5,238 nt of DNA from positions 1 to 5,238 of the forward strand of contig CAMWMY010000107.1 in NCBI GenBank assembly GCA_947175465.1, read 5' to 3'. Below are positions 1 to 4,645 of the stretch, in pieces. Positions within the stretch are counted from its first letter, which is position 1. Every line of letters starts with the position of its first letter. The position numbers and the translations under genes are program-made. Source of the DNA: an uncultured Erysipelotrichaceae bacterium (GTDB taxonomy: Bacteria > Bacillota_I > Bacilli_A > Erysipelotrichales > Erysipelotrichaceae). Below the pieces are notes generated by a model. It made no database searches, was not told the origin of the DNA, and worked only from the letters and a program-made list of their open reading frames with translations.

Positions 1-738
1 ATTCAAAGTAGGGTTATTTCCAATATTAATAATGGCCATATATCGATTCCCTTTTACATAAACACTTCCGATATAAACACCATTTTTAGGATAAATATAA
101 GGATAATTTAATAATAAATTCGCTGTTGGAAAGCCAATTTTTCTTCCTATTTGTCGTCCCTTAAACACTTTTCCTTTCATACAGTAAAAACGTCCAAGCA
201 ATTGCCCAACATGGTCTACTTCCCCATCTATAATAAGTTTTTCAATAAAAGAAGAGCGTACTTTTTCTTCTTGAATGCATACTTCATCTACAACAATAAC
301 ATTGAATTTAGATTGGTCTTTTAGCGTTGCTATATTCCCTTCTCCCTTATTGGCATAATGAAAATCATGACCACAAATAAGTGTCTGCACTTGCAAAGGA
401 TTTAAAATTTCCTGATGGAAGCGTTTGACTGATAAATGTGCAAGCTCTTCATGAAAATGAATGATAATCCACATTTCAATTCCCATTTCTTGTGCAAGTT
501 GCATACGATCATTCATAGAAGTTATATGCGAAATTGATTTCATTTGGTGAAGAATACTCCAAGGATCTGGATCAAAAGTAATGACTGCAGGTACAGTGTT
601 GGTTTGTTTCGCTTGTTGCAATACTTTATCAATTAAAACTTGATGACCTTTATGTAAGCCATCAAAATATCCAATACAAGCAGTAATCGGTTTTTCTTGC
701 TTAATTTTTTGATGAATATCAACATGATAAATTTCCAT
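1..738 (-). CDS. ribF: Bifunctional riboflavin kinase / FAD synthetase RibF (3' end outside window)
   Basis: RibF phosphorylates riboflavin to FMN and then adenylylates FMN to FAD in the cytoplasm. The first 246 codons are present and open; about 60 C-terminal residues of a usual 305-320 aa protein lie beyond the left edge. The N-terminal FMN adenylyltransferase domain (about 1-165) shows the nucleotidyltransferase signature GYFDGLHKGHQ at 23-33, with the HxGH pair His29/His32, and TFDPDP at 54-59. The riboflavin kinase domain begins near 187 and carries GRKIGFPTANL at 198-208, including the PTAN motif that binds metal and nucleotide. The ATG at 738 is chosen because GGAGGG lies 6 bases upstream. 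The gene follows truB by 11 bases, so the two are almost certainly co-transcribed and probably translationally coupled. One oddity is that the usual SSTxIR-type motif reads RSSFIE at 161-166, so its terminal Arg is Glu. Family assignment is very secure. Confidence 0.96.
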   Translation of the reverse strand, partial: MEIYHVDIHQKIKQEKPITACIGYFDGLHKGHQVLIDKVLQQAKQTNTVPAVITFDPDPWSILHQMKSISHITSMNDRMQLAQEMGIEMWIIIHFHEELAHLSVKRFHQEILNPLQVQTLICGHDFHYANKGEGNIATLKDQSKFNVIVVDEVCIQEEKVRSSFIEKLIIDGEVDHVGQLLGRFYCMKGKVFKGRQIGRKIGFPTANLLLNYPYIYPKNGVYIGSVYVKGNRYMAIINIGNNPTLN

Positions 739-744
739 TTTTAT

Positions 745-752
745 CCCTCCTA
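745..752 (-). promoter_or_regulatory. ribF ribosome binding site overlapping the truB stop codon
   Basis: On the minus strand the sequence TAGGAGGG combines the truB stop codon TAG (752-750) with the GGAGGG Shine-Dalgarno of ribF (750-745). The ATG at 738 follows 6 bases later. Ribosomes finishing truB would terminate on the ribF initiation site, so the arrangement supports translational coupling and fixes the ribF start. The coupling itself is inferred. Confidence 0.8.
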
Positions 753-1580
753 CCATAATCCCCTTACACAAGAAAACCATTTTCCATGATGGCGTCTATA
801 AAAAGCGACAACTTCATTTTGATGGACGATAACAACTTCATCTTCTTTACAATCTAAGGCTATAGTTTTCCCATTATATACATCTTTTATAGGTTCATAA
901 GAAACATAAGGAAAATGAGACAATGCATCAAACATGGAAAAAAGTTTAAAATCACCTTGCTCAACTTGACTTAAAGTAACACAATCTTTTAAATGAAAGC
1001 GCCCTACTTTCGTTCGTACTAAAGACTTCATACATCCTAAATTATTACTTTTTTTCGCTATATCTACACATAAGGAGCGTACATAAGTTCCACTACTACA
1101 TGCTACTCTAAAAGTTAGCTCTTTTTCATCTAAGGCTTCTATGTCATGGATACAAATCTTTCTTTTCGGTCTTATAACTTCTTCATGATTTCTTGCATAT
1201 TCATATAATTTTTTCCCGTTTACACGAACACTTGATATCAGTGGTGGCAATTGTTCTTGTTCTCCTAAAAAAGTTTTTAACAATGATGAAAAATTTTGAA
1301 TAGGAGTAATTTCTTTGGTTTCTAATATTTCGCCACTAATATCATCACTTAAGGTCCTTTTTCCTAATTCTAAAGTTGCTATGTATTCTTTATCTGTATC
1401 TTCTAAGTAAGGTAATATTTTACAAGCTCGATTAATTAATACAAGTAATACCCCTGTTGCATCTGGATCAAGCGTACCACTATGTCCAATTTTCTTAATA
1501 TTTAATATTTTTCGAAGCTTATAGACAACATCATGTGATGTCATTCCAGCTTCTTTATAAACTAATAATATACCATCCAT
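750..1580 (-). CDS. truB: tRNA pseudouridine(55) synthase TruB
   Basis: TruB isomerises uridine 55 in the T-loop of tRNAs to pseudouridine. The 276-residue product is complete, slightly shorter than the roughly 300 aa usual for the family. The N-terminal DGILLVYKEAGMTSHDVV segment (2-19) is typical. The catalytic block GHSGTLDPDATGVL (32-45) contains the nucleophile Asp38. The active-site Tyr is Tyr66 in KEYIATLELG; the RNA-contact block NGKKLYEYAR covers 121-130; and SGTYVRSL (163-170) supplies the conserved Tyr166 and Arg168. The C-terminal 60-70 residues form a short PUA-like tail. The usual TDTxD motif after the LG turn reads TLSDD (76-80), a minor divergence. The ATG at 1580 is preceded by AGAGGTGAT, with AGGTGAT at 1590-1584. 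The gene sits 33 bases after aroD and 11 before ribF. Truncation is not indicated. Confidence 0.97.
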   Translation of the reverse strand: MDGILLVYKEAGMTSHDVVYKLRKILNIKKIGHSGTLDPDATGVLLVLINRACKILPYLEDTDKEYIATLELGKRTLSDDISGEILETKEITPIQNFSSLLKTFLGEQEQLPPLISSVRVNGKKLYEYARNHEEVIRPKRKICIHDIEALDEKELTFRVACSSGTYVRSLCVDIAKKSNNLGCMKSLVRTKVGRFHLKDCVTLSQVEQGDFKLFSMFDALSHFPYVSYEPIKDVYNGKTIALDCKEDEVVIVHQNEVVAFYRRHHGKWFSCVRGLW

Positions 1581-1596
1581 CGTATCACCTCTTTGT

Positions 1597-1605
1597 ATTA
1601 TAACA
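1597..1605 (-). promoter_or_regulatory. Possible internal extended -10 promoter before truB
   Basis: In the 33-base gap between aroD and truB the minus strand reads TGTTATAAT: a perfect TATAAT (1602-1597) preceded by TG at 1605-1604, the extended -10 arrangement. The best -35-like hexamer, TTGTAA (1627-1622), is 19 bases upstream and lies within the end of aroD. A start 6-7 bases downstream would fall near 1590, leaving a leader of only about 10 bases that begins at the truB Shine-Dalgarno. That is short, so the match may be chance in an AT-rich gap. Confidence 0.35.
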
Positions 1606-1613
1606 TATATTTT

Positions 1614-2381
1614 TTATTTACTTACAAGATTCTTTAAGCTCTTCAACATCCAACGCATTTCATAAATATTAGGTTGTCCTAAAGAATTTGCTGTCTCAAA
1701 AGTAACAAAAATAATAGAAGATCCTATAAATGGTGCACACAGTCGTGAGATTTTTCCTAAAGATGACATCGAAATAGCAATCATAGGTTGTTTTAAACAT
1801 TGGGTATACATAAAAAATGAAGACTTCATTAAGGCATTAACATCAGCATATTCTTTAGGCATTAAAGCAATTTTTAAAATATCTGCTCCTGTAGATTGCA
1901 TCTTTTTCCATAAAGAAATACATGTTTCATAAGAGAATGTTTGGTGGAAATTATGATAAGATAATAACACTTTTTTATGATGCCTTTGTGCATGTAAAAT
2001 CAGTTCATATATTTGAGAGCGATGTTCACAATATTCGATATCAATTATATCAATATAGGGGCTTTCCATCATTTTATACAACAGATCTTCATAGTGTTTT
2101 TCCCCTATATCCATTTGCCCTCCTTGGGCTTGTGTTCGAAATGTACAAAGAAGAGGTAGTTCTTTAGCAAAAGTATGGATAAGAGCAAGTATATCTTCTA
2201 TCTCTTTCCATTCATTGTTATATGTAAAAAAGTCTAATCGCCATTCAATTAAATCAACTTCTTTATTAGATAAAAAAGATACTTCTTTTTTTATTTCTTC
2301 TTTTGTGTTTCCCATGATAGATACACATAGTTTAGGATCTCCTTCCCCAATAACAACATCTTTTACATTGACTATCTTCAT
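1614..2381 (-). CDS. aroD: Type I 3-dehydroquinate dehydratase AroD
   Basis: AroD dehydrates 3-dehydroquinate to 3-dehydroshikimate, the third step of the shikimate pathway to aromatic amino acids, through a Schiff base. The 255-residue product matches the family length (about 250-255). Numbered from the ATG at 2381, the residues align without shift to the well-studied Salmonella enzyme: Glu46 and Arg48 in EWRLDF, His143 in SYHNF, the Schiff-base Lys170 in ADILKIA, Arg213, and Gln236 in the substrate-closing loop. The exception is residue 86, normally Glu in FRxxxEGG, which here is Gln in FRTQAQGG (81-88). I chose the ATG at 2381 over an in-frame GTG at 2405 because AGGTGAT ends 3 bases before the ATG, whereas nothing resembling a Shine-Dalgarno precedes the GTG. 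It has its own upstream promoter and leads into truB and ribF with no terminator between. Other aro genes are not in view. Confidence 0.95.
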   Translation of the reverse strand: MKIVNVKDVVIGEGDPKLCVSIMGNTKEEIKKEVSFLSNKEVDLIEWRLDFFTYNNEWKEIEDILALIHTFAKELPLLCTFRTQAQGGQMDIGEKHYEDLLYKMMESPYIDIIDIEYCEHRSQIYELILHAQRHHKKVLLSYHNFHQTFSYETCISLWKKMQSTGADILKIALMPKEYADVNALMKSSFFMYTQCLKQPMIAISMSSLGKISRLCAPFIGSSIIFVTFETANSLGQPNIYEMRWMLKSLKNLVSK

Positions 2382-2438
2382 TTCATCACCTACTTTACAT
2401 AACACTCAAAAAATATTTATTCCCTTTTCATGCTTCTT

Positions 2439-2467
2439 ATTTTACAACTTTTCTTCTTTATTCTCAA
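2439..2467 (-). promoter_or_regulatory. Sigma-A-type promoter for the aroD-truB-ribF operon
   Basis: The minus strand carries TTGAGA (2467-2462), a spacer of exactly 17 bases, and TAAAAT (2444-2439). Each hexamer matches the housekeeping consensus at 5 of 6 positions, and a TG dinucleotide sits directly before the -10. The predicted transcription start is near 2432, giving a leader of about 50 bases to the aroD ATG at 2381. The promoter lies downstream of the lysin terminator at 2511-2548, which fits a new transcription unit. I see no operator-like inverted repeat in the leader. Confidence 0.65.
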
Positions 2468-2510
2468 ATTTTCCTCATCTTCATGGCATAAATATAATTG
2501 AAAAATTCAA

Positions 2511-2548
2511 TATAAAAAGACTTTTCGATTTTTATCAAAAAGTCCTCT
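2511..2548 (-). terminator. Intrinsic terminator after the GH25 lysin gene
   Basis: Read on the minus strand, 2544-2519 folds into an 11-bp stem (GACTTTTTGAT against ATCGAAAAGTC, one T-G wobble) with an AAAA loop, followed directly by TTTTTATA (2518-2511). Bases 2545-2548 can extend pairing into the U-tract. It begins about 40 bases after the lysin stop codon at 2585 and separates that gene from the aroD operon promoter. Confidence 0.85.
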
Positions 2549-2584
2549 TATAAATAATGTATCTATTCTTTATTGTAATGGCTA

Positions 2585-4330
2585 TTAAACAGCAATTAAA
2601 TCGCTTATGTGCATAGCTGCTGTAACTTCTTGATTAACTCCAATAACAACACGATCACCTTGAATTTCCATAACAGTATAAGTGTTTGTAAAAACAAAAT
2701 CTGCTAGTGAATTTCCTGTGTAATCTTTGCTTCCAGCAACTACTTTTACAAGACTTCCTACATGGATTTCTTTAGAACTACTTGTAATCGCATCCTCATT
2801 AATCCAACCTGTCCCATTATTAATCAAATATGGGTTTCTTGCACCAGATACAATTTTAGTAATCGTTCCTGTCGATATCGCTGGTATTAAAGGTGTTGTA
2901 CTCGTACTTGAAGTATAAATTTTATCATATGTCACAACATCGCCAACATTTCGATTTTCAGGAGAAGTAGGTATCTTCGATGAATTCATAATTGCTTCAT
3001 CATTTACCCACCCTGTTCCATCATTGATAAGATAAGGATTTCTTGTATTGGGAAGAACTTGTGTTATTGTTCCACTTGTAATATCAGGTAAAAGTCCTTC
3101 TACACTTTCACTTGATGTATAGATCGTATGAAAAGTCACAACTCCAATAACAACACGATCACCTTGAATTTCCATAACAGTATAAGTGTTTGTAAAAACA
3201 AAATCTGCTAGTGAATTTCCTGTGTAATCTTTGCTTCCAGCAACTACTTTTACAAGACTTCCTACATGGATTTCTTTAGAACTACTTGTAATCGCATCCT
3301 CATTAATCCAACCTGTCCCATTATTAATCAAATATGGGTTTCTTGCACCAGATACAATTTTAGTAATCGTTCCTGTCGATATCGCTGGTATTAAAGGTGT
3401 TGTACTCGTACTTGAAGTATAAATTTTATCATATGTCACAACATCGCCAACATTTCGATTTTCAGGAGAAGTAGGTATCTTCGATGAATTCATAATTGCT
3501 TCATCATTTACCCACCCTGTTCCATCATTGATAAGATAAGGATTTCTTGTATTGGGAAGAACTTGTGTTATTGTTCCACTTGTAATATCAGGTAAAAGTC
3601 CTTCTACACTTTCACTTGATGTATAGATCGTATGAAAAGTCACAACATCTCCAACATGATAAAGCGTATCGACAGGAGGTTGTGGTGTTACATCCGATCC
3701 GTCACTTCCATTTAATCCTAATGTCTTTATAATCGAAGGATAATCTTTGTATGCAATATTCATATCGGTTCTAGGGCTTGATCCTGGTACACTTCCATCA
3801 CTTGTATATTGCCACATTCCAAATGGTTTTGTAAAAGTAGGTGCCTGTGCCCATTGTGCTAACCATTTATCAAAAGGATCTAATTCATCAGAATTTAATT
3901 TTGTTGTAAACCAATATAAATTAGAATATACACCAGCATAATATCCTGCAGCTTCAATAGCTCGACAAGTATAGCGAATAATCTCTATCAATAATGCATT
4001 GTTATCAATAACTCCTTGTCGCTCCTTGTATCCATCTGCATCTTCCATATCAATATAAACAGGATATAAAGGACGAAATTGTTTAATTAAATTCACTAAA
4101 CCTTCAGCTTCTTCTTCCATTGTTTGTGTATCTGTTGCATAAGAATAATGATACAATCCATAAGGAAGTCCAACACGTTCACATTCTGCAACATTTTGGC
4201 GAAGCATTTTATCTTCTTCAAAATGTCCCCAGCTACATCGAATAATCGCAAATTGAATACCACTATCTTTAATTTCTTGCCAGTTTAACACACCATTGTG
4301 TTCACTCACATCAATTCCTTTCCACGTCAT
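2585..4330 (-). CDS. GH25 lysozyme (N-acetylmuramidase-type lysin) with duplicated SH3-like C-terminal modules
   Basis: The predicted enzyme cleaves the muramic acid-glucosamine bond of peptidoglycan. Residues 1-205 form the GH25 domain: GIDVSEHNG at 5-13 with Asp7; the acidic pair Asp94/Glu96 in YIDMEDADG; then WQYTSDG (173-179) and TDMN with Asp189. A short Ser/Gly/Pro linker (206-225) leads to SH3-like modules. Modules A (226-283) and B (294-351) are about 60% identical to each other and share IYTSS, GTIT, RNPYLIN and GTGW; module C (from 356) is a different type ending GDRVVIGV. Residues 229-396 are repeated exactly as 397-564, giving the order A-B-C'-A'-B'-C. The first C is truncated where it fuses to A'. 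The start at 4330 is supported by AGAGGT 6 bases upstream. There is no signal peptide or membrane segment, as in phage-type endolysins, but no holin or phage gene is visible. An autolysin or prophage remnant are the alternatives. It is transcribed alone, with a terminator at 2511-2548. Confidence 0.93.
   Translation of the reverse strand: MTWKGIDVSEHNGVLNWQEIKDSGIQFAIIRCSWGHFEEDKMLRQNVAECERVGLPYGLYHYSYATDTQTMEEEAEGLVNLIKQFRPLYPVYIDMEDADGYKERQGVIDNNALLIEIIRYTCRAIEAAGYYAGVYSNLYWFTTKLNSDELDPFDKWLAQWAQAPTFTKPFGMWQYTSDGSVPGSSPRTDMNIAYKDYPSIIKTLGLNGSDGSDVTPQPPVDTLYHVGDVVTFHTIYTSSESVEGLLPDITSGTITQVLPNTRNPYLINDGTGWVNDEAIMNSSKIPTSPENRNVGDVVTYDKIYTSSTSTTPLIPAISTGTITKIVSGARNPYLINNGTGWINEDAITSSSKEIHVGSLVKVVAGSKDYTGNSLADFVFTNTYTVMEIQGDRVVIGVVTFHTIYTSSESVEGLLPDITSGTITQVLPNTRNPYLINDGTGWVNDEAIMNSSKIPTSPENRNVGDVVTYDKIYTSSTSTTPLIPAISTGTITKIVSGARNPYLINNGTGWINEDAITSSSKEIHVGSLVKVVAGSKDYTGNSLADFVFTNTYTVMEIQGDRVVIGVNQEVTAAMHISDLIAV
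2639..3142. repeat. Tandem repeat unit 1 of the 504-bp exact duplication
   Basis: This unit matches 3143-3646 at an offset of exactly 504 bases. I compared the two copies by eye and found no mismatch across the whole unit. The run of identity extends from 2636 to 3142 in this copy and breaks on both sides (2635 against 3139, 3143 against 3647). The 3-base sequence aac occurs at 2636-2638, 3140-3142 and 3644-3646, at each edge of the units. In the protein this is the C-terminal copy, residues 397-564. Confidence 0.95.
3143..3646. repeat. Tandem repeat unit 2 of the 504-bp exact duplication
   Basis: This is the second unit, directly abutting the first. It encodes residues 229-396, the N-terminal copy. 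Its length of 504 bases is 168 codons, so the reading frame of the lysin is kept through both copies. The unit begins inside module A, three residues after its VGD, and ends within module C; its borders do not follow domain borders. Confidence 0.95.
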
Positions 4331-4400
4331 TGTATTACCTCTCTTTCACCCCATGTTATGTCCATCTTTTATTTTGGTTCAGGCAAATAAGGAAATTTTC

Positions 4401-4460: not shown

Positions 4461-4466
4461 ATTCAT

Positions 4467-4645
4467 GTCTAGAGGGTGTATATTTTTCCTACACTTAGAG
4501 ATACGGGAAACTGGACGTTATATTAATGTGTTGAATGCCTGCTACGAGCAGGAATCCTAATTTAATATACAGGTTACCCACCTGGACTTACCAGGAAAGA
4601 TCTCCCCCTTTAGATTTCATTAAAAACGCAATATTTTGCGTTTTT
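4467..4645 (+). ncRNA. Structured small RNA, probably 6S RNA (ssrS/bsrA-like)
   Basis: This is an independent plus-strand RNA gene of about 175-180 nt with its own promoter and terminator and no reading frame. Visible pairings: a 9-bp closing stem of 4468-4476 with 4606-4614 (one G-U); GAGAT 4498-4502 with ATCTC 4600-4604; GGGAAAC 4505-4511 with GTTACCC 4573-4579 (one mismatch); an 8-bp helix of 4519-4526 with 4562-4569; an apical hairpin CCTGC/GCAGG (4538-4542, 4548-4552); and a side hairpin CCTGG/CCAGG (4581-4585, 4591-4595). A small hairpin (4477-4480 with 4490-4493) lies on the 5' side. A long rod with a closing stem, an open central region and a 3'-side hairpin introduced by CCCACCTGGA resembles 6S RNA, which binds sigma-A RNA polymerase and releases it through short product RNAs. 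The length also fits. The 6S identity is from memory of its shape and motifs; the existence of a structured RNA is surer. It lacks the GGAAGGAAGCA-like loop of SRP RNA and is not a tRNA. Confidence 0.6.

Follow-up and report, generated by a model that had tools for sequence, protein, structure and literature searches.

Has a lysozyme gene of an uncultured Erysipelotrichaceae bacterium only just duplicated most of its tail, or was the second copy created by the library or the assembly? The question arises from a perfect tandem repeat in the 5,238-nt stretch of DNA that we analyzed (the window), which is one whole contig (C107) of GenBank assembly GCA_947175465.1. The assembly, which we infer to be a metagenome bin, comprises 234 contigs that total 1.40 Mb, at 83% completeness.

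A perfect 504-bp tandem repeat within one open frame

Exact comparison of the window to itself shows that positions 2636–3142 and 3140–3646 are identical at 507 of 507 bases, with an offset of 504 and no mismatches. This corresponds to two 504-bp units that abut, with an overlap of 3 nt at the unit junction (3140–3142, minus strand; AAC, or GTT on the coding strand, encoding V397). In gene order, the first copy is 3140–3646 (minus strand, residues 229–397, the unit plus the overlap) and the second copy is 2636–3142 (minus strand, residues 397–565). Both copies are inside a single open frame of 581 codons (2585–4330, minus strand), and each unit is 168 codons, which retains the frame. The original prediction, of a perfect in-frame 504-bp tandem repeat of 168 codons at 2636–3646, was exact in all of these respects. 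At every other offset from 20 to 2499, exact runs within the window are shorter than 18 nt, and when the entire assembly (83% complete) was searched at the DNA level, no copies of the unit beyond these two were found.

We also surveyed 60 contigs of the same assembly, of which 57 were readable (621 kb; two were cut at 20,000 bases) and three were all N. The longest abutting exact repeat in the 57 readable contigs is 65 nt, so the 504-bp repeat is far from what would be expected by chance. (Contigs C210, C225, and C234 of this assembly, L110–L112, are all N.)

Contig 28 (G000:C28, L080) encodes a surface-type protein of 1449 aa (3–4352, plus strand) that has MBG domains. Two exact repeats lie within its gene, one of 368 nt at an offset of 1017 and one of 214 nt at an offset of 774, and neither abuts. 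This protein is a candidate variable-length surface protein of the same genome. Its long exact repeats may be as uncertain as the repeat in the lysozyme gene.

The gene probably belongs to the chromosome

The 581-aa product of the two-unit gene (2585–4330, minus strand) is a predicted muramidase. It matches glycoside hydrolase family 25 (GH25; PF01183, E = 4.6e-27) at 95.9 bits, above the curated threshold of 27, it matches the phage endolysin family phrog_291 (E = 4.9e-43), and the predicted protein has the GH25 fold. The catalytic domain is encoded by 3782–4315 (minus strand, residues 6–183). A Shine-Dalgarno-like GAGAGG (4338–4343, minus strand) lies 5' of the ATG and supports residue 1 as the start, and a terminator-like hairpin (2511–2552, minus strand) lies 3' of the gene. 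(A consensus scan of the window found three such hairpins versus 1.9 expected from shuffles.)

Three sites match a start codon plus Shine-Dalgarno sequence, the true start included. One of them is a GTG with GGAG upstream (3641–3652, minus strand) at residue 230, at the start of the first tail module. It could possibly act as an internal start, and hence as a separate start for a free binding domain. At the joint, the spacing in the corresponding copy is shorter.

The original prediction described the gene as a lysin gene, which we qualify in that its neighbors are housekeeping genes and no prophage is visible around it. On the same strand are two genes that we take, from their translations, to be ribF and truB; aroD (1614–2405; type I 3-dehydroquinate dehydratase, TIGR01093, 188 bits, cut-off 139.3); and a gene for a DUF1287 protein, cut by the contig end (4646–5236; PF06940, E = 7.3e-48). 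A 6S RNA lies upstream on the opposite strand (4463–4620, plus strand; RF00013, 50.5 bits, gathering score 46.4). In the related locus L004, from Erysipelotrichales bacterium B98_23_ET_BP, the gene order appears from the translations to be DUF1287-like, short-chain dehydrogenase-like, lysozyme, two genes, one gene in the opposite orientation, truB, and ribF. The DUF1287-like gene, truB, and ribF are thus nearby and in the same order as in the window, whereas aroD is not between the lysozyme and truB in L004, and the L004 stretch has no 6S RNA that reaches the Rfam gathering cut-off. Because the neighbors are housekeeping genes and are partly shared with L004, this is probably a resident chromosomal gene of the host and not a phage gene, as judged from a contig of just 5.2 kb. 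We rejected the possibility of a prophage gene because of these chromosomal-type neighbors: within the contig, ribF, truB, aroD, 6S RNA, and the DUF1287 gene surround the lysozyme gene and no phage or prophage setting was found.

Searches of viral sequences gave distant relatives. The window protein matched 91 of 50,697 phage records, and all 91 matches were below 60% identity. Neither the window protein nor a 24-nt pattern across the junction had a match in viral contigs, a collection that may lack the records nearest to the window's genome. A viral profile search found at least 530 relatives among the first 600 stretches. When the best 80 of these were filtered by the NPYL motif of the tail, 4 of 80 had an open frame with NPYL, with one motif each.

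The assembly also contains a second GH25 gene (G000:C22, 8295–8864, plus strand; 1474–2151 in L003), which encodes about 225 aa and has no wall-binding modules. Judging by translations, it sits between scpB-like and carboxypeptidase-like genes.

The relatives found have one unit

The best homolog of the protein (P0001, 99% identity) has 413 amino acids, which is 581 minus 168. If one unit is removed from the window protein, the two sequences differ only at residues 115, 151, and 408, all of which are outside the unit, and three differences are too few for any pattern. Five member sequences and a contig of 2,196 bp are represented by P0001, with no source given; because it is not letter-identical to the window protein, we infer that it probably comes from another strain of the same species. 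P0002–P0012 also have one unit, and P0001–P0012 are 409–422 aa long. (P0004 is the L004 protein, with 62% identity, one unit, and 415 aa.) The comparison of orthologs that the original prediction had proposed gives one unit in each of P0001–P0012 and no doubled homolog among those listed. In P0001–P0012, GH25 sequence is reached only a few residues into the protein, which leaves no evident signal peptide; in the window protein, the first predicted strand starts at residue 3.

More broadly, we considered 150 homologs (120 listed of 796, plus 30 that were new among 86 matches from a search directed at the junction). We counted two NPYL motifs in 76 of these, one in 49, and none in 25, while the window protein has four. 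None of the 150 homologs listed has more than two, by a count that a module with an altered motif would escape. The longest of them, P0120 (547 aa), has no NPYL. The 86 matches from the junction-directed search are at most 447 aa long, and none is doubled as judged by NPYL count and length. Matches to 19 relatives in genome contigs, a collection from which records near the window may be absent, span at most 1236 bp, which is too short for two sets of modules. When we searched 145 related genomes with P0001, 88 had a match, and by eye, no overlapping pair of partial matches in one frame, as seen in the window, was present among the matches listed. Overall, the homolog, contig, and genome searches, from which the records nearest the window's genome may be missing, gave no second two-unit protein. 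Among the genomes compared, no other belongs to the genus. As the relatives found have one unit, a single unit is the usual form, and this lineage would have gained the second one, provided that the assembly is correct.

A different module seems to have been duplicated elsewhere in the family. P0016 (50% identity in the alignment, 41% in the homolog search) contains an exact 57-aa module repeat at residues 226–282 and 355–411; the copies are 129 residues apart, with another module between them. The next-longest exact internal repeat among the 150 homologs is 29 aa (P0060). So, module duplication with low divergence has probably occurred at least once more in the family.

The breakpoints are inside modules

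We placed approximate module borders by using an AlphaFold2 (AF2) model of P0001 (mean pLDDT 89.7, pTM 0.58, 48 sequences). In this model, GH25 (about residues 1–205) is followed by a loose linker, module A (first strand 229–232), a loose stretch at 283–289, module B, and module C (strands 359–362, 383–389, 392–397, 400–406, and 410–412). Transferred to the window (all minus strand), these borders give a complete module A (3488–3664, about residues 223–281), in which the repeat begins at residue 229; module B (3281–3460, about 291–350); module C', which is truncated at the junction and lacks the last two predicted strands (3140–3268, residues 355–397); module A', which lacks the leading YHVGD and is fused to C' (2984–3142, about 397–449); module B' (2777–2956, about 459–518); and a complete module C (2588–2764, about 523–581). 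According to the model, the breakpoints are at V229, in the first strand of A, and at V397, before the last two strands of C. As both are inside modules, the middle joint would be a fusion of two incomplete modules, C'/A'. The proposal that the set of modules had been doubled is right about the arrangement, A-B-C'/A'-B'-C, and the doubling is not a clean one.

Modules A and B are older relatives of each other, with 34 of 59 amino acids identical (58%, in line with the roughly 60% that had been estimated by eye), 113 of 177 bases identical (64%), and 28 of 59 third positions shared.

What these modules do is suggested by their position and predicted fold. The tail modules are mostly beta in the AF2 model of P0001, so each of A, B, and C is expected to fold as a small beta domain; given this and their position after the catalytic domain, they are likely to bind the cell wall. 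Searched separately, A, B, C, and the joint had no Pfam match and hence no match to an SH3 family. The sole Pfam match above its cut-off over the tail of the whole protein is PUA_3 (residues 335–371, 30.2 bits, cut-off 22.6). Structural comparisons with Foldseek and VIA-align were filled by the GH25 domain and barely sampled modules A–C. A model of the two-unit protein has a mean pLDDT of 78.5, with 10-residue block means of 50–71 in C' and 68–89 in C. The alignment had next to no depth over copy 1, so the lower values in C' are no sign of misfolding, and the joint cannot be judged from this model.

A real duplication or an artifact?

Our preferred explanation, which we consider probable, is that a single tandem duplication happened very recently in a GH25 lysozyme that is probably chromosomal, and that the ends were possibly joined at the 3-nt match. 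The one-unit form would have had GH25 followed by A, B, and C, and the duplication would have taken in the whole of B together with most of A and most of C to give A-B-C'/A'-B'-C while leaving the catalytic domain untouched. The copies differ at 0 of 504 sites (at most 0.59%, 95% bound). The original prediction held that the repeat is either very recent or being homogenized, and the little or no divergence that this implies is what we see, alongside a one-unit relative at 99% identity. As for the joining, a match of 3 nt or more occurs at 8.5% of 22,800 random 504-bp joins drawn from the 57 assembly contigs. Since the match is within the range of chance, it favors a microhomology route just mildly. 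In a study of Salmonella, the duplications that are reported as confirmed (5 of 8 tested) had matches of at least 11 bp, and short matches were treated as a mark of chimeric reads (PMC3411829). According to the available text of that study, long matches were chosen for testing, so short matches are not thereby false (PMC3411829). Subject to this bias, the Salmonella pattern would make an annealing-type event less likely here, or else point to an artifact.

An artifact would mean that the organism has one unit and that a chimeric molecule, or overlapping pieces placed end to end, made the second copy. We agree with the original prediction that this is the main alternative, and we think it unlikely. 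The assembly is fragmentary (234 contigs, 83% complete), a relative at 99% identity has one unit, the copies have not diverged at all, the 3-nt match at the junction is at chance level (8.5%), and the breakpoints are blind to the borders of the modules, all of which would fit with an artifact. Also, assemblies from short reads are reported to misjudge long tandem repeats, although the bacterial case described in the available text is an under-count (PMC6868369). Against an artifact, the frame is kept (a 1 in 3 event by chance), and no comparable abutting repeat was seen in the 57 readable contigs. Furthermore, an overlap of 3 nt seems too short for an assembler to join on: the k-mers described for assemblers are 21–96 (PMC6868369), and as 3 nt is far below this, a read that crosses the junction should exist.

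If the duplication is real, the true array could also have three or more units, of which the assembly shows two. In Yersinia ruckeri, identical repeats of about 300 bp in Ilm were reportedly under-counted in short-read genomes (PMC6868369), so the number here could exceed two as well; we give this a small chance. Finally, the duplication might be older, with gene conversion, or cycles in which a unit is lost and regained, keeping its copies identical. Homogenization would also yield identity at every site, and other surface proteins are described as having highly identical repeats whose number varies (PMC8201768). This seems very unlikely because the relative at 99% identity and the other homologs listed have one unit by motif count, and an old duplication would need to have been lost repeatedly.

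Comparison to known systems

The one-unit orthologs P0001–P0012 have the same GH25-A-B-C architecture and, like the window protein, no evident signal peptide, and are 409–422 aa long instead of 581 aa. The endolysin of Clostridium perfringens phage phiSM101 (PDB 4krt/4kru) is encoded by a phage, unlike the window lysozyme, and we know of no perfect tandem repeat in it. In the available text on other phage lysins, deletions and a 4-aa duplication are described and no perfect duplication of a module (PMC9371310). Our literature searches, which were not specific to this gene, found no report of the repeat.

Tandem binding motifs are said to be common in the lysins of Gram-positive hosts (PMC6023083). 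A variant of Ply500 with an extra wall-binding domain, EAD_CBD500-500, is described as having much higher affinity and improved activity at high salt (PMC6023083). Like the window lysozyme, it has an additional copy of its wall-binding part. It was designed, with one whole domain added, whereas the window gene is natural and has incomplete modules at its joint. By analogy to Ply500, the two-unit enzyme would be expected to stay on the wall longer.

At the DNA level, there is a parallel to the Periscope Proteins (such as SasG, Rib, and Sgo_0707), which are described as having long, identical, in-frame DNA repeats that encode folded domains and whose number is expected to change by recombination, a hallmark of the group; the repeat domains named in a survey of them include LysM and SH3_3 (PMC8201768). 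The window gene shares the long, highly identical repeats (507 of 507 bases). The one-unit protein at 99% identity, for which no source is given, and the two units in the window assembly may reflect a difference in number between strains. In contrast, Periscope Proteins are described as surface stalks that project a ligand-binding domain, and the named ones are anchored to the wall, while the window protein is a predicted muramidase and its repeat unit does not start and stop at domain borders. Reading the sequence, we found no C-terminal motif for wall attachment and no sign of surface projection: the protein ends in module C (...DLIAV). As no anchor is visible, we describe the gene as Periscope-like at the DNA level and do not class the product as a Periscope Protein. 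A bolder proposal is a "periscope lysozyme," in which the length of the wall-binding array varies between strains by block recombination and tunes the grip on the wall, with C'/A' as a new hybrid module; this is doubtful.

Implications for the lysozyme and its family

If the duplication is real, it is an ordinary kind of event, as bacterial surface proteins are already known to have repeats of this kind. Recombination would be expected to remove or add units, given that the copies are identical. With its tail nearly doubled, the enzyme would be expected to stay longer on the wall, and the fused C'/A' joint would carry some risk of misfolding. The wall binding, the altered avidity, and the expansion from strain to strain that the original prediction put forward are all inferences. 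If the repeat is not real, then it is still instructive as a caution about tandem repeats when an assembly is fragmentary. If it is real, then a domain duplication in a lysozyme has been caught before its copies diverged, with the one-unit form at hand for comparison, and the one-unit and two-unit forms would lend themselves to testing whether the time that the enzyme spends on the wall changes with additional wall-binding modules.
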